A stretch of 64,000 nt of DNA, taken from contig JADFZZ010000024.1 of assembly GCA_015232315.1 (NCBI GenBank), forward strand, positions 1 to 64,000, read 5' to 3'. Made by a program: the position numbers and the translations under genes. The notes under the pieces are model-generated. The model saw nothing but the letters and a program-made list of their open reading frames with translations, was not told where the DNA came from and did not search any database. This document shows positions 10,918-58,490 of this stretch, in pieces; positions within the stretch are counted from its first letter, which is position 1, and the number at the start of each line of letters is the position of its first letter. Source of the stretch: SAR324 cluster bacterium. GTDB lineage: Bacteria; SAR324; NAC60-12.

Positions 10918-13900
10918 TCAAAGTTGTTCCGGTGTTTGTTCCGGTGTCTCAGACTGAAGTTTGTTGGGGGTATCTGATTTCCTGTCCCGGGGTTGTCGCC
11001 AGACAATCGTTTTCCAGTAGCCATTGGTGCTGAAACATTCCCAACTCCATTTGCCCCATGAGATCAGCATGGATGCCAGCCAGATGGCCCAAAACAGCAT
11101 AAATCCACGATAAACCCACAGGGGCAATGAAATCACCTGAGCTTGCGTCAGCGTTGAGGCCGACTGATCCTGATACCATCTCAGAATGGTGCCGTTGGAG
11201 CCGTTTCCTGAAATCTGCATTTGCGGAGACCCGAGCAATCCCTGCTGAATGGTGTACAGCAACACCCCCAAAGAGCCAAACGTGAGTAGCACCAACCCGA
11301 GCTGGAGTATGTTGAATCGGAACGTTGATCCGGACTGATCCATCGAACGTCGCCAGCCGATCGCAAACAACCAGATTGTGACCAGCAGAAACGCTTCCGG
11401 CATGACAGGCGCCAGTCCCAGTCCGAGCAATATCCAGTGCAGGGATTTAAGTGGCGTGATGGTCGTTTTTCCGAGTCCCACACTGACCAGCAGAATGATC
11501 AGCAGGGTTCCCCAGAATAACACCGCCGGCCCCATCAGCGGACCACTGACCCATAAAATCCAGCGGTTTCCGGGCATCCGTACCTGAATATCGGAATTGA
11601 CTACCGGAGTTGCCATTTTCAGAGCGGGGGTTTTGGTCTGTGTGGAAAGATCCTGCTGTTGATTCCAGGAAAGATCCATGATCTGATTTCCCGGCATGAC
11701 AGGCAACACCAACTGATTCTGCTCCATTCGGGGCACCTGGGGAATTCGGTTGATCAGCACCTGATTCAACTGGCTGTCCTCAGGCAGTCGGATGGTGTAT
11801 TCGCCGCCCTTGCTGGAACGCAGATGGAACTTGAAGCGATATTCCACATGGCGTTGCCCCGGAGTCATGTGGAGTTGAGTGTAATCGACGGTCATGGTCG
11901 CGCCTTCCACGGCTTCAGGGCGATGAATTGACAACTGGATGGATTCTTCGGGCCACGGCCGCCATTCAGGAACCCACAAGCCCTGACGACTCAAATTGTT
12001 CAGTGGAGGAATTCCCTGATAATCCACATGCCACACGGGTTTGACATTCAACAGCCAGACTTCCTGCCATGCCAGCATGGATGGCGCTTTTAATTCGAGC
12101 TGTTCTTGAAACCGCAAGGTTGAATTCCATGATGTGGACTCTCCCGGAGCAAGATGGATGAGTGCCTTGCCATTTTTAACCTGAATCGCCTCGCTCATGA
12201 CGGATTCGCCCTCCAGCAGAGGAATTTCCACAATGGCCGACGAATCAGACACGTTCATGGGCGTGATCGTCGTCTGAATTTTCCATGTCAATTCAAACAG
12301 TAATTCCCGTTTTACCTGTAAAAAAGGCGGCAAGGCCTGCGTTTGCAGAACCTGCGGTTCATCCGGACTGGCTTTGACCTGTTTCTGAAGGCGGAAAAAT
12401 TGCAGGGACGGACCAACCTTGTTGTCAGCCAGAATTCCTTCAACACGCCAGCCTTCCAAAGTGACAGTCACCCTCTGCGGAATCACTTCAAAATTAAAAT
12501 CAATCACGCGCTGATCAAGAATTTTTCCGGAAATAATGATCTGTTGAATTCCCGGTTCCAGCGCCGTGGCAATCTGACCGTTGGACAATCGTGTTATCGA
12601 AGAGGGTTTCCCGTTGACCATAAGGGTATTTAATTTCCAGGACTGAATACTGCCTCCCAACGGCATCACAATATGTTCCAGCGCATGAACTTCATAGCGG
12701 ACTCTCAGCTCATCCGGAGTCATTTCAAACCAGGCCTTGGTGACAGTCGCGCATTGGGGCAAACATTCGGGCGGTCGGGTCAGCCGATTTTGAAGTTCTT
12801 TCAGCAAGCCCTCGGGAGGAAACTGGGCCTGTGCCACAGAGGGGGAAAAACTGCTGACAACCCCCAACAGCAGAAACAGGGACAGCGATAAATTCATTAA
12901 ATTTTTAAACGAATATTTGTTTCGGTCTGACCAGTGAAATTCCAGAAAGAATACAATCATCACCCCCAGAAGGATGACCTTGAGGAAAGCCAACAGCAAA
13001 TTGACCCAGGGAGGCGTGAGCCATAATGTTATTTTCTGATTTTGCGGCACAGGTCCATTCCATCCGAGATTGATCGTTTGCCAATGCCATAAGGGAATAC
13101 CACTGCCTGTTTGAAGTTGGGATTTCGGATCCATTTCATTCCAGTCCTGCTCCTGTTTTTCCATGGAAAGCATCATGGGTGCTTCAGGCAAAGCATTGTA
13201 TCCTTTCATTTCACGTTGAGGTTCAACCTGAGAGAAACCATCCATTTCCTGTTCATCGGCCATTGGCATGCTCCGTTTGGCTTTCAAGGCGGAAGAAATT
13301 CCGACACGTCCTGACATTCCCGGATTATGTAGATAATTCTGAAACATGGTTTCCACATCCATGACCTGCCATTGATTTTCCAGTTGGGGGTACAACCCTT
13401 GACGCAACTGCTGAATCATGAACGGCAATGCCGCAAAAATCAGGCTGACCAGAGCCAGAATCCGCCATGTGTGCACAAATCTTCTGAATTTTCCCACAGG
13501 GAGAACCCTCAATAACGCAACGGCGCCCAGAATATGCAGAAATACCCAGCGTGGAGCCTGGGGTTCCTGATAAATCAAGGTCATGGTGACCATTGTCAAC
13601 AGACCGGCTTTCCAACCCCACAAGCGAAACGAGGCAAACACAATCAGAAACACCACAAACAAATCCAGCAAGGTCCATCGATCGATCCATGAAGTTTGGG
13701 TGGTGTCTGTGCCCTGAACACCCCAAAGGGTCCAACCCGGAGGAAGATGCAGTCGAGCGTTCAGTGATTGCAGATCTTTCTTCCAGCCAACCACCGGCAG
13801 AGACATCGAATCCCTGATCAGTGAGCTTTCGGATTGAACATTGATTTGCCCCGGACGAACTTCAATGCCCGCAGGAGCATTCTCCGCGATCCGGGTGATG

Positions 13901-15117
13901 AGCTGGTCACGGCCATTGAGGGTCACTCGATCCAGATGAAAAATTTCGTTCATGTCAAGGCGAGTGCCTTGGCGGATCTGCCCCTGCAATTGATCCAGAA
14001 CACTGAAACCTGTGCCTTCAAAATTGAGCCAATACTGGCGTTCCAGGCCCAGTTGATCGGGTTCAGGCTGTCGTCCCCGTTTTTTTTCATTGAGGGTGAG
14101 CGCTTCACCGGGCAGTACCAACCAGGCAGGATAATTCCTCCATTCGGGCGGCATGGAGGTTTGTCCCGGATCCACCGAGGTTCCACCTTCCACCTGAACA
14201 ACCCTGAGTTCCGGATGAGAAAAAAAACTCCAGATTTCCTGCTTTGGCATCCGGTCATCACGGGATTCAACCCGCAATTGATTCAACGGTTCACTGGACC
14301 GGACAGAATAACGGATGTTCCAGTGTCCGGGGCGTACCTGAATTTTCATGGAATGGTTTTCTTCCATTCTGACAGCCAGAGGACTGTTCAAGGCGAAGGC
14401 AATCGTTTTGCCAAAAGTTCCGGGATCAATCTCGATTTCACGGGTTTTTCCTGACACATCCAGTTCCAGATGTGTGTGAATGAGGAGTGGAACCTGATCT
14501 TCAATCAGTCGGAAAACCCTGAAGCGAACAGAATCTTCTTCCACAACAGGTGGCGGTGTCGCCTTGTCAGCCGGTTGATTCAACCACAGCATTCCCTGTG
14601 TATCAAAGCGGGGTGTCCTGATTTCTGTTTTACCCACCCACAATTCAATCAGGCCGGTATTGGGGCTGATCTCCAAAAATTCCGGTAAGGTGTCCCATTC
14701 CCATAGTCCTTCAATTTCATGGGTTCCAGCGTCCAGCCAAACTTCGGATCGGTTGTCCAGTTGCCTTACCGGGACAGGTTTGCCTTTGATCGTCACATTC
14801 TGTGCCCAATGTCCGGATTTCCCGGGCAATTCAGTCCATCCTGCCTGATACACGTCCAACGCCTGAATGAAGCGTCCACCTGTTTCATGGGCATAGATTT
14901 TCAGACTGTAAGGCCAGACACAGTGTCGTTGCTGAAACTGGTTGTATAAAAAGGGGCAATTCTGTTGTTTCTGTTCATGCAGAACCCATGGAACCCATGG
15001 TTTGAGCGCTTCAGGAAGGTTTTTGATCGAGGTTGGTTCGGCCTTGATGCTGGAGGTTGCTGAGAGCAATAAAAAGAGTAGAACGGACCATGCTGAGATA
15101 TATTTAACGGCGCCCAT
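10918..15117 (-). CDS. Giant membrane protein of unknown function (1399 residues)
   Basis: I do not recognise this protein. It has a signal peptide (residues 1-26, ending SSIKA) and a large beta-rich periplasmic region (about 27-480) full of Trp, Pro and short polar strands. Hydrophobic helices occur near residues 490-570, 700-725 and 739-760, then a second periplasmic region of similar style (770-1180), and a cluster of helices near 1190-1290 and 1330-1355. The C-terminal 40 residues are polar and Gln/Pro/Thr-rich. The layout suggests an ancient duplication of a periplasmic-plus-membrane unit. The WS/DGAT gene follows 21 bases downstream. An envelope or transport role is plausible but unproven. 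Confidence 0.75.
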   Translation of the reverse strand: MGAVKYISAWSVLLFLLLSATSSIKAEPTSIKNLPEALKPWVPWVLHEQKQQNCPFLYNQFQQRHCVWPYSLKIYAHETGGRFIQALDVYQAGWTELPGKSGHWAQNVTIKGKPVPVRQLDNRSEVWLDAGTHEIEGLWEWDTLPEFLEISPNTGLIELWVGKTEIRTPRFDTQGMLWLNQPADKATPPPVVEEDSVRFRVFRLIEDQVPLLIHTHLELDVSGKTREIEIDPGTFGKTIAFALNSPLAVRMEENHSMKIQVRPGHWNIRYSVRSSEPLNQLRVESRDDRMPKQEIWSFFSHPELRVVQVEGGTSVDPGQTSMPPEWRNYPAWLVLPGEALTLNEKKRGRQPEPDQLGLERQYWLNFEGTGFSVLDQLQGQIRQGTRLDMNEIFHLDRVTLNGRDQLITRIAENAPAGIEVRPGQINVQSESSLIRDSMSLPVVGWKKDLQSLNARLHLPPGWTLWGVQGTDTTQTSWIDRWTLLDLFVVFLIVFASFRLWGWKAGLLTMVTMTLIYQEPQAPRWVFLHILGAVALLRVLPVGKFRRFVHTWRILALVSLIFAALPFMIQQLRQGLYPQLENQWQVMDVETMFQNYLHNPGMSGRVGISSALKAKRSMPMADEQEMDGFSQVEPQREMKGYNALPEAPMMLSMEKQEQDWNEMDPKSQLQTGSGIPLWHWQTINLGWNGPVPQNQKITLWLTPPWVNLLLAFLKVILLGVMIVFFLEFHWSDRNKYSFKNLMNLSLSLFLLLGVVSSFSPSVAQAQFPPEGLLKELQNRLTRPPECLPQCATVTKAWFEMTPDELRVRYEVHALEHIVMPLGGSIQSWKLNTLMVNGKPSSITRLSNGQIATALEPGIQQIIISGKILDQRVIDFNFEVIPQRVTVTLEGWRVEGILADNKVGPSLQFFRLQKQVKASPDEPQVLQTQALPPFLQVKRELLFELTWKIQTTITPMNVSDSSAIVEIPLLEGESVMSEAIQVKNGKALIHLAPGESTSWNSTLRFQEQLELKAPSMLAWQEVWLLNVKPVWHVDYQGIPPLNNLSRQGLWVPEWRPWPEESIQLSIHRPEAVEGATMTVDYTQLHMTPGQRHVEYRFKFHLRSSKGGEYTIRLPEDSQLNQVLINRIPQVPRMEQNQLVLPVMPGNQIMDLSWNQQQDLSTQTKTPALKMATPVVNSDIQVRMPGNRWILWVSGPLMGPAVLFWGTLLIILLVSVGLGKTTITPLKSLHWILLGLGLAPVMPEAFLLVTIWLFAIGWRRSMDQSGSTFRFNILQLGLVLLTFGSLGVLLYTIQQGLLGSPQMQISGNGSNGTILRWYQDQSASTLTQAQVISLPLWVYRGFMLFWAIWLASMLISWGKWSWECFSTNGYWKTIVWRQPRDRKSDTPNKLQSETPEQTPEQL

Positions 15118-34177: not shown

Positions 34178-37100
34178 TTATTTCTTGTCAATCCGATACA
34201 CGCCGTTCCATTGTGCTGGAGGTAGTTTCAGAAAGGTTTCACAACGGTCAATGAACACTTGAGGGACAGGATCTTCAGGCAGAAGTTCCTGATAATTTCT
34301 GAAACAGGCCTGAGCCTCTTTCCATTTTCCTGCTTCATAGATGCTGACAGCTTCCTGAAAACTGGTGAGATGCTTCAGTTTTGCTTCCTTCAATTCGGGC
34401 CGATCATGTTCAAACACATCATAGAGCCTCGTGACAGCCTCCTTGCCTTTGACCTGCACGCTGTCAATCAAGCGCATCGGAAGAGTATGCTGATTTCCCA
34501 GAAAATTTTTGGTTTGTTCCGAAATGATCAAATCACAACCATACAGTTTTGTGAGGGATTCGATCCGTGACGCGGTATTCACCGCATCGCCCAAAACCGT
34601 AGTGTCCATGCGTTCTTCCGAGCCAATCACGCCAATGGTGACTTCACCGGTGTTGATGCCGATCCCGATCCGCAAGGGAACAGCGCCTCGTTGTTGACGA
34701 ATTACATTGAATTGAGCAAGAGCGGATTGCATACCCAAAGCGGCATACACCGCATCTCCCGGATTATCGTCAAACAAGGCCATGATCGCGTCACCAATGA
34801 ATTTATCCACAAAGCCATGATGTTCCCGAATCGGCGCTTCCATGAACTTGAGATATTCATTGAGGAACCGGAACACTTCTTCAGGCGGCATATCCTCTGT
34901 CAACGAAGTGAACGACCTGACATCTGAAAACAGCACCGACAATGTTGTTTGTCGGGCCAATCCGGTTTCCAGGGATTCTATGTCAATATTGCCCAGGCGA
35001 TTGGTGAACTGTCGGGGCACAAAGCGCTCAAACACCCGCATGGTGGCTTCAGTTTGTTGACGAGCTTGCTGTTCCTGCGCATAAATCTGGGCATTGTTCA
35101 TGGCAATCGAAACCTGGGTGGCGAACACTTCCACAATTTCCCGATCCTTCATGCTGAACACCGAAGACGCATGATGGTTTTCCAGATATAAAACGCCCTG
35201 CATCGTATCTTTCAACATGATGGGGACCGCCAGGATGGATCGCAACTGAAACGACCGAATGCTATCGCTTTTGTTCCACCGTTTTTCATGTCGCGCGTCA
35301 CGGGTCACAATCGATTGTCTGGATTCAAAAACTTCCCTGATCAAAACTTTACTGAAGCGATGGTCTTTTGGCTCCAACCGGGTTCCTCTGGCATTTCGGG
35401 CCAGGCGCAACATCACATCATCTTCACTGCACAGGCCGGTGACTTGACAACAACGGCCCACCGTGAACAGATAGCCCTGCTCAGCGCCGGACATCTGCAT
35501 GGCACCTTTGAGAACCTCCTCGAACAGCGACTGAATATCCAGTTGAGCGGATATTTTCCGGTTGATTTCCATCAGTTTGAACATATCGGCGTTGCCCTGA
35601 AGAAAGGAAGTCAGAGAGGTCGAAGATTCGCTGGTATGTTTACTCCATGTTTTCAGGTCATCCCTGAACAGTTCATAATATCCGGTGATGTCGAGTCGGA
35701 GCATTTCAGTGAGGATTTGTTCTGCTGTTTTAACCGCATTGGGTTGATGCTCCCTGAACCATGCCAGACGTTGCACCGCGAATTGCACTTGCAGTTCAAG
35801 CAGTGGCGCGTCCAGTGGTTTGGAAAAACTCCGGGCCTCCTCAAGGGCTTCCCCGGCCTTGTCGAAAAAATTCAGATTCATATACGCCCATCCCGCCATG
35901 CAGGCATACAATCCCTGCATGTAGGGGTCCGGTCGAAAATCCATCTGGATTTTTGCTTCATCCAGAAATTTCAGGGCGGTTTCAGGATCATCGTTGAATA
36001 TCGCCACCTGAATCCGTCCATACAAGGCCATTGGCCGATCAATCTGCTGTTCAGCTTTTTCGGTCCGGTTCAAAATTTCCTCAAACCGTTGAATGGCATC
36101 ACTCAGTTTTCCATTCATCCCCAACGCTCTGGCGATCAAACATTTCTCAATGGCATCGCCCATGGGGCCCATCAGGCCTGTCATCATCCCGGTGTACTCA
36201 GAATTGACCATTTCCAGAATCTTTCTGAATTCACCGCGTTCCATTTCCATGATGGCCTGAGCCGCGATTCTCAATGTTTCTCCCAGACCTGTGTTTTCGG
36301 TGTTCAACCTGTCGGCGATTTGATGAATGGTGGCTTCCAGTTCACGAAATCGCCCCTGATAACTCATCAACGACGAGAGGATGATCATATTGTTCACCAC
36401 CTCGTTATAAATTTGATATTTGAAGGACAGTTCCATGCCCCGTATGAGCAGATCGGAGCGTTCCGCATAACTCTTGCCGCTGGCAATGCGGCCCAGAATA
36501 TTGAGAATTCGGGTCAGATATTGTTCGTCTTCAGGTTCAGTCGCCATGTGGATCAACTCTTCACCAAACCGGAAGGTGTCTTGTTTGAAGCCTCTGAAAA
36601 AACTGAGCATAGCCTTGAGCCACAGAAGTTTCATGATCTGGACTTTATTGTGACCAGCCCACTTTTCCAGAGCCAGCGTTTCCTGCCATAATTTGTCATA
36701 CTCCTGAGTGTATAAAAAATTATAGCGAATGGCTTCATAGCGCACATCAAACTGTCGATCTGCGGGAATCAAACCCTCTGGTAAAGAGTTGAGATATTCC
36801 ACCGCAAGATTGAAATAAATGTTGGTCTGGCGTTGGTAGGTACGCTCATCATGCGTCAGCATCGCGGATTTGAAATAGGCTTCAAACGCCTGTTCATTGT
36901 TACCGCTTTTCGCCCAATGGAAGGCAATGTCATAAATGCTGTCCGGAGAATCCGGAAGAATCCGCTGTTTCAGAAACAGGGCAATTTCCTGATGCAGACG
37001 CGCTTTGTGGTCGGGAACGAGACTGGAAGCCAGGGATTCTCTGAGTTGAGTGTCACGGAAGGCATACAGTTTTTTGGAATCCACCATCAGGACATTGTTC

Positions 37101-39091
37101 TGAATGGCTTTGTCCAGAATGACCAGCAACTCATTGTTTTGCAGGGGCTGAAGCTCAGGATGCGCTGGAATAATCCGGAGTAGCGCTTCAAAAGTAAACG
37201 CTCTGATAAACACGGCACCGCATTGCAGTACCTTTTGTTCCTCAGGTGTGAACAGGAGCAGTTCCAGTGAACCAGCTTTTGCCGACTCCACTTCGCCCAT
37301 GAGACGTTCGGTCTGTTCCCGATCGACACGCCATGAATTGTGCTGATAATACACGGCATGATGATCCACCAATTGCTGAAGAATCTGACTCAACAAGCCC
37401 GGGTTTCCATGAACCAGATTGTAAAGACGGTTCATTAAAAAAGTCATGTCCTGTAACTTTTGGGAAAAGACACGCTGAAGCAACAGTCCAAACTGTGCCT
37501 CACTCAACGGATTGAGAAACATGTGCCTGAGCGTTGGCAAATCGAGAAGAGACAGTGTCTGTTTAAATTCTTTGGAAAGTTGTTTGTAATTGAAGGTGAT
37601 GATCCACAAAACTTTCAATTGCAAAAACCGCTTCAGATCACCAAACAGACATTGAAAAGACTGGGCATCCATGTGCTGGAGATCATCAACCATGATCACC
37701 AGAAAGTGATTGTAGCGTGCGGTGATTTCAATAAATTGATAAACCACTTCACGATAATCCTCGATCTTCCACGGATTGACGGTTCGGGATACCGGAATCA
37801 TGCCGGGTTCCAGCCAGTTTTCCAGTTCAGGAACAATTTCAAGCAGAAGCGGAAATCTGGTGTCGAAGGATTTGATGAAATATTGAACAATCGTCATTTG
37901 CTGAGCAGGTGTCATGCTTTTCAGAAACACATCAAACTGTCCCAGCAATGTTTTGAAAAAATGCATTGGTTTTTCACGGGAATCCTGACGCGACTGAACA
38001 TGCCAACATATTTTTTCGGTGGTGCTCAGTTGATTGAACAGTTCCGAGATAAACCGTGTTTTTCCAACCCGGGGTGCGCCTTCGACCAGAAGCATTTGGC
38101 CTGATCCCAGGCGCAAGGCCTGATCCCTGTATTCCATGACGGTCTTGATTTCCTGCTCACGACCCACCAGCGGATATTGTCGGGGAATGCTCCAGGAATG
38201 GTCTTCCTCACCCAGTTTGAAATGAATGGAATGAGGCGCTTGTGTTTCGGCCAGACGGACATAGCGCTGAATGTCTTTGAGCAGTCCCTGGGTGGTTCGG
38301 TAGCGGTCATCCGGATCTTTGCTGAGCAATTTGAGAATGATGTTTTCCAGAATCACCGGCACATCAGGTCTGAATTGAGTCAAAGGTTCTGGTTCCTGAG
38401 CCATATGTTGATGAATCAACAATGCCGCGTCTTCATGCTCAAAGGGAACTTTTCCGGTTAAAATCTCATACATGCAGATCCCCAGCGAATACAGATCGGC
38501 GCGATGATCCACCGGACGATGCAGGATTCCGGTTTGCTCGGGTGCCATGTAAGCCAGGGTGCCGCCCATGTGTTCCATCTGGCCTGTCACCAGATGGGAA
38601 AGTCCGAAATCGAGCAATTTGACACCCATACCATTGCGGGTATGCCGAATGAGAATATTGGCTGTTTTCAAATCAAAATGAACCCAGTTTTTTTCATGGA
38701 TAAACACCAGTGCGTCTGTTAAATCCATAAAAATTTTTAAGACCATTCCGAGATCCAGGGGGTGATGATCCTTGACAAAATGCGCGAGATTGGGGGCATC
38801 GATGTATTCCATGACCAGCATGTAAACATCATCTTCATGAAAAAAATCCTCATAATGGATAATGAATGGATGCTGGAGTTCTTTCAAGGCCTGGGCTTCT
38901 GCCTGAAAACGGAGGACCGTTTCAAGAGGGTATTTTTTCTTGCGGACATCAATGAGTTTGATGGCCTTTTCTTCACGGCTCTGGTTGTCAAATGCCAGAA
39001 GAACCTGCCCCATGCCGCCTTCGCCGAGAAGACGCTGGATCTGATACCTGTCAAGCAGGGTTTTACCAATATATGTGGAATGTCTGAGCAT
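34178..39091 (-). CDS. Ser/Thr kinase-AAA ATPase-GAF-adenylate/guanylate cyclase fusion
   Basis: The product has 1637 residues. The protein kinase domain (about 12-280) has the glycine loop LGEGGMGQV, Lys45, catalytic Asp140 in HFDLKTAN (Phe replaces the usual Arg of HRD), and DFG at 161-163. An AAA-type ATPase follows with Walker A GAPRVGKT near residue 343. A long helical TPR-like region covers roughly 640-1150. A GAF domain (about 1175-1330) contains ILAVPIMLKDTMQGVLYLEN. The class III cyclase domain (about 1375-1560) has LFSDVRSFTSLTEDM and FIGDAIMALFDD. A short helical tail ends the protein. It is a soluble, multi-input signalling protein; the kinase part resembles MalT/AcoK-like multidomain kinases. 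Confidence 0.92.
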   Translation of the reverse strand: MLRHSTYIGKTLLDRYQIQRLLGEGGMGQVLLAFDNQSREEKAIKLIDVRKKKYPLETVLRFQAEAQALKELQHPFIIHYEDFFHEDDVYMLVMEYIDAPNLAHFVKDHHPLDLGMVLKIFMDLTDALVFIHEKNWVHFDLKTANILIRHTRNGMGVKLLDFGLSHLVTGQMEHMGGTLAYMAPEQTGILHRPVDHRADLYSLGICMYEILTGKVPFEHEDAALLIHQHMAQEPEPLTQFRPDVPVILENIILKLLSKDPDDRYRTTQGLLKDIQRYVRLAETQAPHSIHFKLGEEDHSWSIPRQYPLVGREQEIKTVMEYRDQALRLGSGQMLLVEGAPRVGKTRFISELFNQLSTTEKICWHVQSRQDSREKPMHFFKTLLGQFDVFLKSMTPAQQMTIVQYFIKSFDTRFPLLLEIVPELENWLEPGMIPVSRTVNPWKIEDYREVVYQFIEITARYNHFLVIMVDDLQHMDAQSFQCLFGDLKRFLQLKVLWIITFNYKQLSKEFKQTLSLLDLPTLRHMFLNPLSEAQFGLLLQRVFSQKLQDMTFLMNRLYNLVHGNPGLLSQILQQLVDHHAVYYQHNSWRVDREQTERLMGEVESAKAGSLELLLFTPEEQKVLQCGAVFIRAFTFEALLRIIPAHPELQPLQNNELLVILDKAIQNNVLMVDSKKLYAFRDTQLRESLASSLVPDHKARLHQEIALFLKQRILPDSPDSIYDIAFHWAKSGNNEQAFEAYFKSAMLTHDERTYQRQTNIYFNLAVEYLNSLPEGLIPADRQFDVRYEAIRYNFLYTQEYDKLWQETLALEKWAGHNKVQIMKLLWLKAMLSFFRGFKQDTFRFGEELIHMATEPEDEQYLTRILNILGRIASGKSYAERSDLLIRGMELSFKYQIYNEVVNNMIILSSLMSYQGRFRELEATIHQIADRLNTENTGLGETLRIAAQAIMEMERGEFRKILEMVNSEYTGMMTGLMGPMGDAIEKCLIARALGMNGKLSDAIQRFEEILNRTEKAEQQIDRPMALYGRIQVAIFNDDPETALKFLDEAKIQMDFRPDPYMQGLYACMAGWAYMNLNFFDKAGEALEEARSFSKPLDAPLLELQVQFAVQRLAWFREHQPNAVKTAEQILTEMLRLDITGYYELFRDDLKTWSKHTSESSTSLTSFLQGNADMFKLMEINRKISAQLDIQSLFEEVLKGAMQMSGAEQGYLFTVGRCCQVTGLCSEDDVMLRLARNARGTRLEPKDHRFSKVLIREVFESRQSIVTRDARHEKRWNKSDSIRSFQLRSILAVPIMLKDTMQGVLYLENHHASSVFSMKDREIVEVFATQVSIAMNNAQIYAQEQQARQQTEATMRVFERFVPRQFTNRLGNIDIESLETGLARQTTLSVLFSDVRSFTSLTEDMPPEEVFRFLNEYLKFMEAPIREHHGFVDKFIGDAIMALFDDNPGDAVYAALGMQSALAQFNVIRQQRGAVPLRIGIGINTGEVTIGVIGSEERMDTTVLGDAVNTASRIESLTKLYGCDLIISEQTKNFLGNQHTLPMRLIDSVQVKGKEAVTRLYDVFEHDRPELKEAKLKHLTSFQEAVSIYEAGKWKEAQACFRNYQELLPEDPVPQVFIDRCETFLKLPPAQWNGVYRIDKK

Positions 39092-40094: not shown

Positions 40095-40585
40095 CCTCCT
40101 TTGAACAGAAACTGTTCGGGTTGTTTAAAAAATATTGGTTCTTTGGAATTGGTCATGATAAGTACCCGACCAAAAATATTTAATCATTTTTTCTGGTTCC
40201 CTACCTCTGGTGGGGAACCCTTCTTAGCCCAATACCCGTGAGTGAAATCCTGTTTGTAGTCCCGCCTTTAGGCGGAAAAGCCGCTGAAAAACCGCCTGAA
40301 GGCGGAACTACGAACTTTTCGTCACGATTTCAGAAAAACCTTCTTTAATCACATACCTCACTGTAATTGATCACTTATTAATTACAGTCCCAAATTCACT
40401 CACGGGTATTGTTCCTTATCCCACATCCAGTGGCTTGCCAACGAGCAGTGGAAGGGCACCAGAGGTGCCTTATGGAAGCGAGGGATCTTAAAGATTTCTC
40501 GCTTTTGGCTCGAAATGTCAAAATTCCAGATTTAACCCGTTCCAAGTATAATGCATTTCTAAAAGAGACTGTGCATTTTAAAAAT
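40095..40585. other. Gene-free region made of stacked repeat elements
   Basis: No gene is visible. The region holds sequence repeated at 45153-45266 (40118-40231), an inserted 180-base element (40231-40410, listed separately), and a stretch (40422-40477) with TGGCTTGCCAACGA and GCACCAGAGGTGC that is repeated near 45270-45320. At 40478-40493 GCGAGGGATCTTAAAG recurs at 45007-45022. Confidence 0.7.
40231..40410. mobile_element. 180-base MITE-like element with perfect 16-bp terminal inverted repeats
   Basis: AATACCCGTGAGTGAA at 40231-40246 is an exact inverted match to 40395-40410. Inside, an imperfect long hairpin runs from GTAGTCCCGCC (40256) to GGCGGAACTAC (40311). The element has no coding capacity. 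The copy of the host sequence near 45266 lacks it, so an apparently empty site is present in the same window. Confidence 0.7.
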
Positions 40586-41369
40586 GACTCTGTAGCGGAT
40601 GGCAATCAAAATTATACGATCTCAGTCACCCCCAGCAGCAGTTCTGCCGATACCACCGGCTACAAAACTCTGACCGCCCAAACCGTCAGTGTGAACAACA
40701 CAGATAATGATTCTCCAGGGTTCACATTGGGAACGATCAGCGGCAATACCTCTGAAGCCGGAGGCTCCGCTACCTTCACGGTGAAACTCAACAGCCAGCC
40801 CAACGGGAACGTCCTTCTAAACTTGGCCAGTTCCAACACTTCAGAAGGCACCATATCTTCTTCCTCTTTGACCTTCACGACCACGAATTGGAATGCGACC
40901 CAAACTGTGACGGTGACCGGAGTCAATGACTCTGTGGCGGATGGCAATCAAAGTTATACGATCTCAGTCACCCCCAGTAGCAGTTCCGCAGACACCACCG
41001 GCTACACAACACTGACCGCCCAAACCGTCAGTGTGAGCAACACGGATAATGATTCTCCAGGGTTCACCTAGTGGTGTAGAAAAAACATGGTCTTCCGCTA
41101 AATCTTATTGTTCAGGACTTTCTCTCGGTGGTTCGTCGAGCTGGAGATTACCCACAATTAGTGAGTTGACGATGGTATCGGGTCATTTGGAACTGTACTC
41201 CTATAGCGCGATTAATGGAACTCAGGATTATTTTACCCCTGGGTATGAAGAGGTTTGGTCTTACACGGCCTATGATACCTATGAGGCATGGGGGTGTTCG
41301 TTTGGTTATGCCGACTGTAGTTGGACTGATTTTAAGACCGAAGTATACTATGCCCGTTGTGTGCGTTAG
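40586..41369 (+). pseudogene. Broken Calx-beta-like repeat/DUF1566 surface protein
   Basis: Two copies of a 114-residue beta-sandwich repeat are visible: the first partial copy begins at NDSVADGNQNYTISV, and the next copy starts 342 bases later with nearly identical DNA. The repeat holds SEAGGSATFTVKLNSQPNG, as in Calx-beta or similar extracellular domains. The frame stops at 41071. The continuation in another frame (about 41080-41369) is a DUF1566 domain (GGSSSWRLPTISEL, then YYARCVR). A frameshift and a lost N-terminus, including any signal peptide, mark it as the remnant of a larger exported adhesin-like protein. Confidence 0.8.
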
Positions 41370-41529: not shown

Positions 41530-42579
41530 CTATTCAAAGACGGCCTCTAGGCGGTCCACCTCCAGAACCCGGTCTTCCCATTGTTGTAGGATTTCAAGAG
41601 AGGAGGCTTCCAATTTTTGGGAAACCCAAGGAGGGAGTTTCCCAAATTTTTTCTCCAGAATTCTCCGCAAACTCTGCTGAATTCCTCTGAGAAATCCTTG
41701 TTGGGCACCTTGTTGGATACCTTGTTGGATACCTTGTTGGATACCTTGTTGGAGGCCTTGTTGGAGGCCTCGTTGGAGGCCTTCAGAGGTCAATTGTTCC
41801 GCAATGGTCATAAGTGTTTCTCCAGCTTGAGGGGTGACAGAATGGGTGATGATTTTTTTCAGGGTGTTCAGCGTGATCGAAGCATCCGCCTGAATCATAT
41901 ATTTCAACAAGGTTTCCAGCAGTTGCAAGGCACTTTCCTGGTTCAATAACTCCCGGAGCAGGGGCGCAATGCCTTCCAGGGTTTCCGGCAACGTTCCTTG
42001 AGCGACCGCTTTTAAGAGATGCTGGACAATACGTCCGAGGAGATCCCCTTGGATTTGCTCCCCTTGGAGATGTGACAGATTCACCAATTGATACGCAAAC
42101 TCAGGCACATACGGACGCCATAAGGTGTGGAAGGACTCTTCCAGATTCAGAAGGCTCTGAAACTGAAGGGGAACCGTCCACTCCCTTTTCCCCTGATACA
42201 ACACCAGAGGGAACACGGGTGGCAAACTCAAGACCGGATGGTCCGGGGTCGCTTGTTTCAGCAGGGAACTCCAGAGTTGGACCAGGTAACGGAGCAGACG
42301 CAAGGGCATCCAGCGATCCGGAGTGCTTTGATGTTCAAATAAAACATAGAGAACCAGCCCTTGACCGGCCCCTTGAATCCGATAAATCAGATCCGATTCA
42401 TGTTCCCGTAACTCCTCATCCACAAAACTGCCTTCCACGCACTCCAGCGTCTCCAAATCCATTTGATTCACCAGCGATTCGGGCAGGTAAGCCTGAATAA
42501 ACCCGATGGCGCTTTCTTTGCGGGAAAAAGTTTCCCGAAACAGTTTATCATGTGGGGAGAGCAGGGAAGCGTCTGACAT
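41530..42579 (-). CDS. Rpn family recombination-promoting nuclease/putative transposase
   Basis: The product has 349 residues. The N-terminal PD-(D/E)xK domain shows PHDKLFRETFS, then YLPESLV, then ESDLIYRI and LYVLFEHQS, which supply the acidic and QxS-type catalytic positions. Rpn proteins cut DNA and raise RecA-independent recombination in E. coli. Near residues 265-295 there is a row of four-residue repeats (GLQQ, GIQQ) encoded by a 12-base tandem repeat that can expand or shrink. The C-terminus is helical. A remnant of a second copy lies at 44370-44449, and related repeats stand on both sides of this gene. Confidence 0.9.
   Translation of the reverse strand: MSDASLLSPHDKLFRETFSRKESAIGFIQAYLPESLVNQMDLETLECVEGSFVDEELREHESDLIYRIQGAGQGLVLYVLFEHQSTPDRWMPLRLLRYLVQLWSSLLKQATPDHPVLSLPPVFPLVLYQGKREWTVPLQFQSLLNLEESFHTLWRPYVPEFAYQLVNLSHLQGEQIQGDLLGRIVQHLLKAVAQGTLPETLEGIAPLLRELLNQESALQLLETLLKYMIQADASITLNTLKKIITHSVTPQAGETLMTIAEQLTSEGLQRGLQQGLQQGIQQGIQQGIQQGAQQGFLRGIQQSLRRILEKKFGKLPPWVSQKLEASSLEILQQWEDRVLEVDRLEAVFE
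41695..41785 (-). repeat. 12-base tandem repeat inside the Rpn gene
   Basis: The unit CCTTGTTGGATA and close variants repeat about seven times in a row. Each unit encodes four residues (GIQQ or GLQQ), so length changes keep the frame. Confidence 0.85.
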
Positions 42580-56213: not shown

Positions 56214-58490
56214 TTATTTACTGGTTGCGGTATAAACTTTATCCCAATCTGCTGGTGGAGGGGTTCGCATGAAGTTGTGGCAACGTTCAATGAATACTCC
56301 GGAAGGTCCATCTTGTGGTAGAATTTTAAGCACCTCTTCGAATTTGGCAATTCCCTGTTCCCATTGACATTGACGGTAACATTCCAGACCTTCCGCAAAA
56401 AGTTTAAAACCCTGTTCTTGCTGTGCTGTCAAATCTCCAACCCGGCATATTATTTCATAAATACGAACAGGCTGATTGATTCCAATAACTCGAATAAGAT
56501 CAAGTTCTCGACCAACGATGGTATCCCTGCATTTCTCATAAGTCATTTCAGACATCATGAGGGTTGATTTATAAACCTTATTGGTACCTTCCAATCGGGC
56601 TGCGAGATTCACTGAATTTCCCATGATGGTGTAATCAAAACGATTTTTGCTACCCATGTTTCCCACAACCATGCGTCCTGTATTCAAACCAATCCGCTGG
56701 GCAATATGAACGCCCCATTCTTCTTTCCATTTTGGACGCAATTCAGCAACCCGGCTTTCCATTTCAAGCGTGACCAGTGCGGCTCGTGTGGCATGATCTT
56801 CGAAAGGAAGCGGCGCCCCAAAAAAAGCAATGATGGCATCCCCTTCAAATTTATCAACTGTGCCATCATATTTCATGATGATATCAGTCATTTCTGTGAG
56901 GTATTCGTTGAGGAGATGTACCAATTCATTGGGGGTTAATTTTTCGGAAATGGTAGAAAAACCAGCCACATCAGAAAACATTGCCGTCAGAATTTTTTCT
57001 TCTCCACCGAGGGACAATGCTTTGGGGTTGTCCATGAGTGTATGAATAACAGTGGGGGATAAGTATTGTTGAAACGCACCTTTGATGAATCGTTTGTCCT
57101 TGTCTGAAACAAAAAACATATATTGTGTTACACCTGCGGCAACCAAAACCATATCCACTGCCACATAAACATAACTTGGCCAGTTGAGCCAGTAATTGAC
57201 ACAATATTGATGAAAATAGGTGTAACTGATGAGTAAAAAGAAAAACATTCCGAGTCCATAAATCAATTTGATTCGTGGAAACACCAACCCGAAGATTCCT
57301 CCTAATGCCAAAATAACCAGCAACGTATATAAATGATTGAACAAGCCGAGTTGAAAATATGTGCCTGAAAGAAAGTTATCCAGGGCATTTGCATGCACCT
57401 CAACTCCAGCATAGGCTTCCGAGACAGGAGTAACTCGCAAATCAAGAATTCCAACTTCAGTGACACCCACCAACACCATTTTGCCCCGTAATTTTTCAAT
57501 CGGAATTTTATGTTCTATAATATCTACAATGGAATAATGGGGAAATGTGGTAGCCGGGCCTTTATAATTGAGCAGAATTGAGCCGTCAGGATCTGGATAG
57601 ATGACAAGATCTCCAACCACGATGCTGGAAACACCAAATTCCTCAGCATTGATACGGATACTGCTTTTCAAATGGTTGGCCAGCATTTTTAGACTGAGAG
57701 AGGGATAATATTTGTTGCCTGCTTTTCTGATGAGATGTAGTCTTCGTACCACACCATCTTCGGAATCGATATCCACATTAAAAAAACCGAATTGGGTGTT
57801 TTCAGAGGCAATTTGGGGGATCGTCATTTCGGGATAAATTTCTTCTGGTACTACAGAAAGTTGATCGAGCCATTCAAATCCCTGAATCACTGATATGGCA
57901 CTACCTTGTAAACGCTGTTGTTGCGCAATGATTTCTTCGGTTGGAATGTGGCCGATTTCTTCATTATAACTCATGAAGACATAACCCAACACGGTTCCAG
58001 GAGCCTTTGCCACCTGCTGTCCCATGAATAAATCTCCATCCAGTTCATATTCATACGACTGTAATTTTTTGAGATAATCCTGACCAGCAAATGTTTGAGA
58101 AAGTGGGTTTTTTTCAAATTGTGTCCGAACGTTATGCGCCACATTGACATCCGCGTCATTGGGTTCAGAAAACACAATATCAAAACCAATAGTGCTGGCC
58201 TGATAATATTCATTGAGGCTTTGGATCATTAGCCCAATGTACTTTCTGGACCAAGGCCATCTTCCATATTTGTCAATACTGGGACTGTCCACTGCGGCCA
58301 CTACAATCTGATCACTGTGTTCAATGGTTCCACGTCCTTTTTGAATCAGATCAATCCATTTTTTATCCATCATGTTCAAGAAACTGGTGGTGTCCCCGAT
58401 GTTCAATAAATATAAGACAATCATTCCGGTTGTCATTATTCCAGAAATTTTATTGGGGGTCATTCTTAAAAATTTTTTAATAAATTTCAT
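56214..58490 (-). CDS. CHASE2-domain adenylate/guanylate cyclase
   Basis: The product has 758 residues. An N-terminal helix (ISGIMTTGMIVLYLLNIG) leads to a periplasmic CHASE2 sensor (about 45-370), followed by three helices (near LYTLLVILALGGIFGLVF, LIYGLGMFFFLLISYTYF and VYVAVDMVLVAAGVTQYM). The class III catalytic domain has MFSDVAGFSTISEKL, DKFEGDAIIAFFGAP and DYTIMGNSVNLAARLEG, with the metal-binding Asp residues in place. The C-terminal 55 residues (RQCQWEQGIAKFEEVLKILP, ending in DWDKVYTATSK) resemble the tail of the cyclase at 34178-39091. It would turn an outside signal into a cyclic nucleotide. Confidence 0.93.
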   Translation of the reverse strand: MKFIKKFLRMTPNKISGIMTTGMIVLYLLNIGDTTSFLNMMDKKWIDLIQKGRGTIEHSDQIVVAAVDSPSIDKYGRWPWSRKYIGLMIQSLNEYYQASTIGFDIVFSEPNDADVNVAHNVRTQFEKNPLSQTFAGQDYLKKLQSYEYELDGDLFMGQQVAKAPGTVLGYVFMSYNEEIGHIPTEEIIAQQQRLQGSAISVIQGFEWLDQLSVVPEEIYPEMTIPQIASENTQFGFFNVDIDSEDGVVRRLHLIRKAGNKYYPSLSLKMLANHLKSSIRINAEEFGVSSIVVGDLVIYPDPDGSILLNYKGPATTFPHYSIVDIIEHKIPIEKLRGKMVLVGVTEVGILDLRVTPVSEAYAGVEVHANALDNFLSGTYFQLGLFNHLYTLLVILALGGIFGLVFPRIKLIYGLGMFFFLLISYTYFHQYCVNYWLNWPSYVYVAVDMVLVAAGVTQYMFFVSDKDKRFIKGAFQQYLSPTVIHTLMDNPKALSLGGEEKILTAMFSDVAGFSTISEKLTPNELVHLLNEYLTEMTDIIMKYDGTVDKFEGDAIIAFFGAPLPFEDHATRAALVTLEMESRVAELRPKWKEEWGVHIAQRIGLNTGRMVVGNMGSKNRFDYTIMGNSVNLAARLEGTNKVYKSTLMMSEMTYEKCRDTIVGRELDLIRVIGINQPVRIYEIICRVGDLTAQQEQGFKLFAEGLECYRQCQWEQGIAKFEEVLKILPQDGPSGVFIERCHNFMRTPPPADWDKVYTATSK

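Follow-up and report, generated by a model that had tools for sequence, protein, structure and literature searches.

Does a protein that carries a Ser/Thr kinase and a class III cyclase on one chain use the first to control the second? The gene at 34178–39091 on the minus strand of the window (the whole 64,000-nucleotide stretch analysed here) raises this question. The earlier note on this DNA had proposed that phosphorylation is directly coupled to cyclic-nucleotide output and that the kinase, having HFD in place of HRD, may be active independently of activation-loop phosphorylation. Our preferred reading, which we hold with a probability of about 0.6, is that the gene encodes a soluble one-protein sensor in which STAND/TPR-gated assembly would switch on the C-terminal cyclase; direct kinase-to-cyclase coupling is possible.

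Domain layout and the STAND-type middle

The gene is a single unbroken reading frame with an ATG start and encodes 1637 amino acids. A chance reading frame is excluded because full-length orthologues with 43–46% identity occur in three other genomes of the same family, together with one fragment at a contig end. Four Pfam matches lie above the curated cut-offs: Pkinase (residues 16–269, 9.6e-51), AAA_16 (307–492, 9.4e-14), GAF (1185–1331, 2e-13) and Guanylate_cyc (1382–1554, 1.4e-21). Frame and matches bear out the domain combination given in the earlier note (kinase, P-loop NTPase, GAF and class III cyclase), which had not mentioned the helical/winged-helix and TPR region (approximately residues 493–1155), the conserved tail or the STAND nature of the "AAA ATPase". 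The features are as follows.

34178..39091, minus strand: whole gene, kinase – STAND NTPase – TPR – GAF – class III cyclase – tail (reading frame, Pfam, orthologues)
38285..39046, minus strand: protein kinase domain, residues 16–269, with K45, E65, D140, K142, N145 and D161-F-G
38672..38680, minus strand: HFD motif (non-RD), residues 138–140
37616..38173, minus strand: STAND-type P-loop NTPase, residues 307–492, with Walker A GAPRVGKT and Walker B VIMVDD
37016..37615, minus strand: helical and winged-helix region, residues 493–692 (predicted model m71574491191a; fold matches to the NTPase parts of MalT and Apaf-1)
35627..37015, minus strand: TPR superhelix, putative sensor, residues 693–1155 (predicted model; fold matches to MalT domain III, 1hz4, and Rap)
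35099..35539, minus strand: GAF domain, residues 1185–1331 (Pfam)
34949..35098, minus strand: helical linker, residues 1332–1381, with the swap junction near its start
34430..34948, minus strand: class III cyclase domain, residues 1382–1554, with D1390, K1430, D1434, T1498, N1505 and R1509
34181..34429, minus strand: conserved C-terminal helical tail, residues 1555–1637, ending PPAQWNGVYRIDKK

The mean Kyte-Doolittle value exceeds 1.6 in no 19-residue segment of the protein, which has no strong membrane segment and is therefore probably soluble. The gene follows a DUF547 gene of the same orientation at a distance of 163 bases. A blastp comparison of the reading frames of the window with the flanks of the orthologues found no conserved neighbourhood adjoining the cyclase-type genes. 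We found 9 promoter-like sites where chance predicts 9.2, and 9 terminators against 6.2 expected, and draw no conclusion from these counts. Elsewhere in the window, a 1399-residue reading frame (10918–15117, minus strand) has no Pfam or NCBIfam match at 1e-3, and a TTG-start frame that contains almost identical repeats and matches Calx-beta weakly (40409–41071, plus strand) adjoins a YhgA-like gene (41530–42579).

We modelled residues 292–1190 from a 30-row alignment (m71574491191a; pLDDT 83, pTM 0.67). The top PDB match of this model in Foldseek is 6mfv, a STAND protein with a TPR sensor (7e-12). A second comparison, VIA-align 2 run on Foldseek's match list, gives Z 25.9 for MalT domain III (1hz4; rmsd 4.5 over 342 residues), Z about 22 for Rap-type peptide sensors, Z 20.1 for the NTPase part of MalT (8bob; rmsd 4.2 over 379) and Z 17.6 for Apaf-1 (rmsd 4.2 over 392). 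Since generic TPR proteins such as APC/C subunits reach Z values of up to 26.3, the TPR match by itself is unspecific; the matches of the NTPase part and of 6mfv are more specific. In the model and the fold search, NTPase, helical, winged-helix and TPR parts follow one another in the order of the STAND plan. We read the middle as a probable MalT/PknK-like STAND switch with a TPR sensor, an assignment that rests on the model and on fold matches partly reflecting generic TPR repeats.

For MalT-type STANDs, PMC4381067 describes an inducer that opens the ATP-bound core and so leads to multimerisation, with ATP hydrolysis restoring the resting state; the paper lists PknK as a kinase of the STAND class. 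With a predicted STAND switch and TPR sensor in the middle, assembly driven by an inducer and pairing the cyclase domains would be a likelier trigger than phosphorylation. In the mechanism that we propose, the TPR sensor would keep the STAND module off until a putative inducer, possibly aided by a ligand of the GAF domain, opens the NTPase core, whereupon the protein would self-assemble. Two C-terminal cyclase domains would then be paired via the GAF-linker helix and make cAMP. The N-terminal kinase, competent as judged from its residues and probably not switched by activation-loop phosphorylation, would most likely modify its own protein or a partner, either providing a second output or feeding back. 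The chassis is modular: the place taken by the cyclase belongs to a histidine kinase in related genomes. Sequence or model shows the order of the domains, the intact motifs of kinase and cyclase, the STAND-TPR fold and the output swap; we infer inducer-driven assembly, cAMP as the product and the role of the kinase. The order of the two halves could also be reversed, with the kinase acting on the cyclase.

A kinase with a non-RD catalytic loop

Residues K45, E65, D140, K142, N145, D161, F162, G163, E185, D199 and R263 are present in the window kinase and in all seven orthologue rows (six distinct orthologues, as one row is a second copy from genome G048). All catalytic residues checked are intact, and we rejected a pseudokinase reading of the protein on this ground.

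The HFD motif is as the earlier note had it (catalytic loop HFDLKTAN, residues 138–145), and Phe139 stands where an RD kinase has Arg before the catalytic Asp. At this position the six distinct orthologues carry His (four, HHD) or Leu (two, HLD), and the 12 paralogues from the same genome carry Lys (ten), Arg (one) or Leu (one). In 82 distant rows, which come from the 80 best of 578 loci found by a pattern scan and were selected for similarity to the window protein, we found Lys in 70, Arg in 4, Tyr in 3, Cys in 2 and Ser, Leu and Gln in one each. The HRD Arg is present in 0/6 orthologues, 1/12 paralogues and 4/82 distant rows. The 20 other kinases of the class in our tree have HRD in 16 cases and HLD, HKD, HQD or no motif match in one case each, and kinases in reading frames of about 650 residues have HRD in 7/7. 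Since these other kinases are mostly HRD and the fused relatives are not, lack of the Arg tracks direct kinase–NTPase fusion and not the window gene. The earlier note would have given up its proposal if HFD were common in the subfamily: the non-RD state is indeed common, and Phe at position 139 occurs in the window protein only among the subfamily and distant rows. We have dropped HFD as a unique activation feature, as the Arg is missing in relatives too and PMC2176072 terms all cyanobacterial dual kinases (cbSTKIII members) "KD" kinases.

The stretch from DFG to GT comprises 13 residues in the window kinase, compared with about 19 in most of the paralogues from its genome, and its conserved Ser/Thr residues are limited to the P+1 Thr and to a Ser, largely conserved, two positions past DFG. 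Such a short stretch with few conserved Ser/Thr residues fits activation without activation-loop phosphorylation. Together with the intact catalytic residues and the non-RD loop it speaks for this part of the earlier proposal, but the loop is nothing special, being usual in the relatives. Absence of the HRD Arg alone leaves the mode of activation undecided, because EFR, a non-RD plant kinase, is phosphorylation-regulated and is described as signalling without its own catalysis (PMC8463890).

In the kinase tree, which is unrooted (rooting serves drawing only) and whose bootstrap is not fully settled, the seven chassis rows cluster as a single clade (100/99), which lies outside that of the 12 paralogues, the HstK-like kinases and most distant rows (96/85).

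Exchange of the output domain and opposite motif decay

The window cyclase has both metal-binding Asp residues of class III enzymes (D1390 and D1434) as well as N1505 and R1509, and these are kept along with K1430 and T1498 in all three orthologues with a cyclase domain. K1430 and T1498 align with adenylate cyclases, and we take them to be residues of adenylate rather than guanylate specificity; adenylate cyclases (2w01, 3r5g, 5x4t) are also the domain's best matches among solved structures. A C-terminal model (m39aea843bbf8; 4 rows, pLDDT 66, pTM 0.46) was unusable for placing the cyclase and informs the helical linker and tail only. An anti-phage assignment was rejected: PADLOC returned 45 families, and the 25 matches listed all fall on the kinase domain or, for PycC, on the cyclase region, reflecting generic homology. 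Matches in the genome (5.25 Mb) number 45 for class III cyclases and 48 for cNMP-binding domains, 46 of the latter exceeding the cut-off, which is an unusually large cyclic-nucleotide repertoire; cAMP signalling is thus rich there, and the window gene is one of many. The window holds a second cyclase gene, of the CHASE2-cyclase type (56214–58490, minus strand).

We searched 58 genomes, including the source genome, for the kinase–STAND–TPR–GAF chassis (E <= 1e-150) and found it in seven: the source genome, four further members of its family and two genomes from a different family of the class. A phylum-wide search of 52 genomes returned the same seven. The look for this domain order in other genomes that the earlier note had advised yields cyclase-type chassis in G002, G004 and G005; the G010 orthologue is truncated by a contig end before a complete GAF domain. 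In G048 and G051, HisKA/HATPase replaces the cyclase (by Pfam on G051 and by our own profile on both), and tblastn matches to the window protein end at residues 1373 and 1348. Identity of these two proteins to the window protein is 43–50% in GAF, 16–27% in the linker and 10–13% beyond. The full-length cyclase-type orthologues have 62–70% identity in the linker, 60–64% in the cyclase and 37–41% in the tail, and their kinase (55–58%) and cyclase are better conserved than the NTPase (25–32%). Judged from the alignments, the same chassis carries either a cyclase or a histidine kinase, exchanged in one direction or the other just after GAF. The two families provide a natural domain-swap, one having the cyclase and the other the histidine kinase.

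The chassis genes of G048 and G051 have a same-strand histidine kinase gene directly upstream and a convergent receiver-SpoIIE gene at the other end; none of these neighbours adjoins the window gene.

L044:7454-8803 and 13837-14769: histidine kinase and receiver-SpoIIE genes
L045:5197-6552 and 11553-12491: histidine kinase and receiver-SpoIIE genes

G048 also encodes a 1538-residue kinase-NTPase-GAF protein (L162, G048:C88) with an HRD kinase, in which local profiles gave no cyclase, SpoIIE or histidine-kinase match.

Exchange of this kind bears on whether kinase and cyclase work together at all. They might be independent outputs on one scaffold, serving separate pathways and sharing only the STAND sensor. 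Such an arrangement would account for the histidine kinase in G048 and G051 and for the free exchange in the source genome, where 13 kinase-NTPase-GAF proteins end in a SpoIIE phosphatase (nine), a cyclase (two), Hpt/HATPase (one) or no output that we found (one). We nevertheless consider it rather unlikely, since the three full-length cyclase-type orthologues retain the kinase–cyclase joining with little change in length, and this persistence hints at a shared function. The SpoIIE-type loci are given as L029–L033, L035, L037 and L039, Hpt/HATPase as L036 and the protein with no known output as L038. As nine of the 13 end in a SpoIIE-type phosphatase, kinase and phosphatase are joined in one chain there.

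In a cyclase tree of 50 rows (42 cyclases of the source genome, one weak match being left out, and eight from kinase-NTPase-GAF-cyclase proteins), the window protein groups with its three orthologues (92/100; branch present in 94% of 200 bootstrap trees). K034 from the same genome (locus L034) and the cyclases of L048, L049 and L050, whose source records are Myxococcales, Rhizobiales and Proteobacteria, respectively, group with ten of the genome's own cyclases (100/99). Taken with the kinase tree, these separate groups argue that the kinase-NTPase-GAF-cyclase order was assembled at least twice. In L050:7890-13299, kinase-NTPase and GAF-cyclase lie on two overlapping reading frames, owing either to a gene split or to a frameshift in this metagenome contig.

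The two ATP-using modules decay in opposite ways. All 82 distant rows have the Walker A Lys, 80 have the first Walker B Asp and 81 the second acid. By contrast, kinase Lys, Asp, Asn and DFG-Asp are all present in only 15, and the DFG-Asp in 17. The N-lobe alignment is uncertain in the most diverged of these rows; the change from DFG to GFG lies within a well-aligned motif. Conversely, all six orthologues have the four kinase residues, but the second Walker B acid occurs in a single one, in which Arg replaces the Walker A Lys. In G004 and G005 the Walker B pair, DD in the window protein, reads DP or DN. The set of Walker A (GxxxxGK[ST]) and two-acid Walker B is thus intact in none of the six. 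The window protein retains both sets. Its 12 paralogues keep the four kinase residues in 12/12, the NTPase set in 10/12 and the catalytic-loop Lys (position 142) in 3/12. Distant relatives therefore appear mostly to retain NTPase motifs and lose kinase residues, and the orthologues to do the reverse; the Fisher values for this opposition (3e-7 and 2e-5) treat related rows as independent and are descriptive only.

Kinase residues intact in the window protein and all six distinct orthologues, in a protein whose kinase and cyclase are, with GAF and linker, among the best conserved parts, could also suit a phosphorylation relay in cis. The kinase would phosphorylate the GAF-linker region or the cyclase, in the same or an adjacent chain, and thereby set cAMP output. 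We think this improbable: the same kinase lineage is retained in chassis proteins that end in a histidine kinase, output domains persist in distant relatives whose kinase motifs are broken, and a non-RD kinase is able to signal without catalysis (PMC8463890).

Assembly gated by the STAND module therefore remains our preferred reading, with one reservation about its resetting. Because the Walker motifs are broken in 6/6 orthologues, the subfamily may not run a normal ATP cycle, though the motifs are intact in the window protein. With the kinase fully kept in the same orthologues, autophosphorylation might conceivably replace ATP hydrolysis in resetting the cAMP-making assembly or in setting its threshold, a notion that we advance as a long shot. 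The opposite decay between lineages offers a falsifiable clue to the division of labour between the two modules.

Comparison with known systems

TIGR03903, the TOMM system kinase/cyclase fusion, likewise has kinase and cyclase in one chain; membership was ruled out by score (123.9 bits, cut-off 705.75). PKN2 of Myxococcus xanthus combines a kinase with a cyclase-like domain but, unlike the window protein, has a transmembrane segment, and the account of it in PMC1262709 names neither an NTPase nor GAF.

The MalT and PknK STAND proteins share the NTPase–helical–winged helix–TPR plan as predicted by our model, and PknK has a Ser/Thr kinase as well (PMC4381067). The window protein differs by its added C-terminal GAF and cyclase, and its orthologues by the loss of parts of the Walker motifs. 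The CP1 family of bacterial kinases is described as cytosolic and as linking the kinase to a predicted ATPase (COG3899) and to GAF/PAS, and about 40% of its members are given as pseudokinases (PMC12599244), which the window protein is not; we compared CP1 by description only. The window protein has AAA_16/STAND directly after the kinase and no 19-residue segment above 1.6, an arrangement that may correspond to the one described for CP1.

The closest known proteins are the cyanobacterial HstK dual kinases, HstK itself having been described in 2001 (reference in PMC1262709). As listed in PMC2176072, HstK/cbSTKIII proteins have an N-terminal Ser/Thr kinase, GAF, a C-terminal signalling enzyme and no HRD Arg. 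The window protein shares the N-terminal kinase and GAF; it has a cyclase for HisKA/HATPase, HFD rather than HKD, and a kinase outside the HstK-like clade of our tree, and it keeps the Glu and DFG that many cbSTKIII members have as Gln or DFS (PMC2176072). Among the chassis proteins, only those of G048 and G051 have the HisKA/HATPase end of the HstK type. Tery_2857 of Trichodesmium, entered in a table of PMC2176072 as "cbSTKII GAF, CYCc", is the published precedent; by this domain listing it has kinase, GAF and cyclase in one chain, but according to that paper it clusters with cbSTKIII kinases, unlike the window kinase. In a full-text literature search we recognised no published description of the exact architecture beyond this table row.

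Since cyclase-type and histidine-kinase-type chassis can be compared, the role of the kinase in HstK-like proteins becomes directly testable. The exchange of outputs on a shared chassis and the opposite decay of kinase and NTPase motifs are worth following; like the repeated assembly of the domain order, they are more informative than HFD. The protein is a real, conserved and patchily distributed variant of the HstK/CP1/PknK kinase-STAND kind, and its non-RD loop is ordinary.
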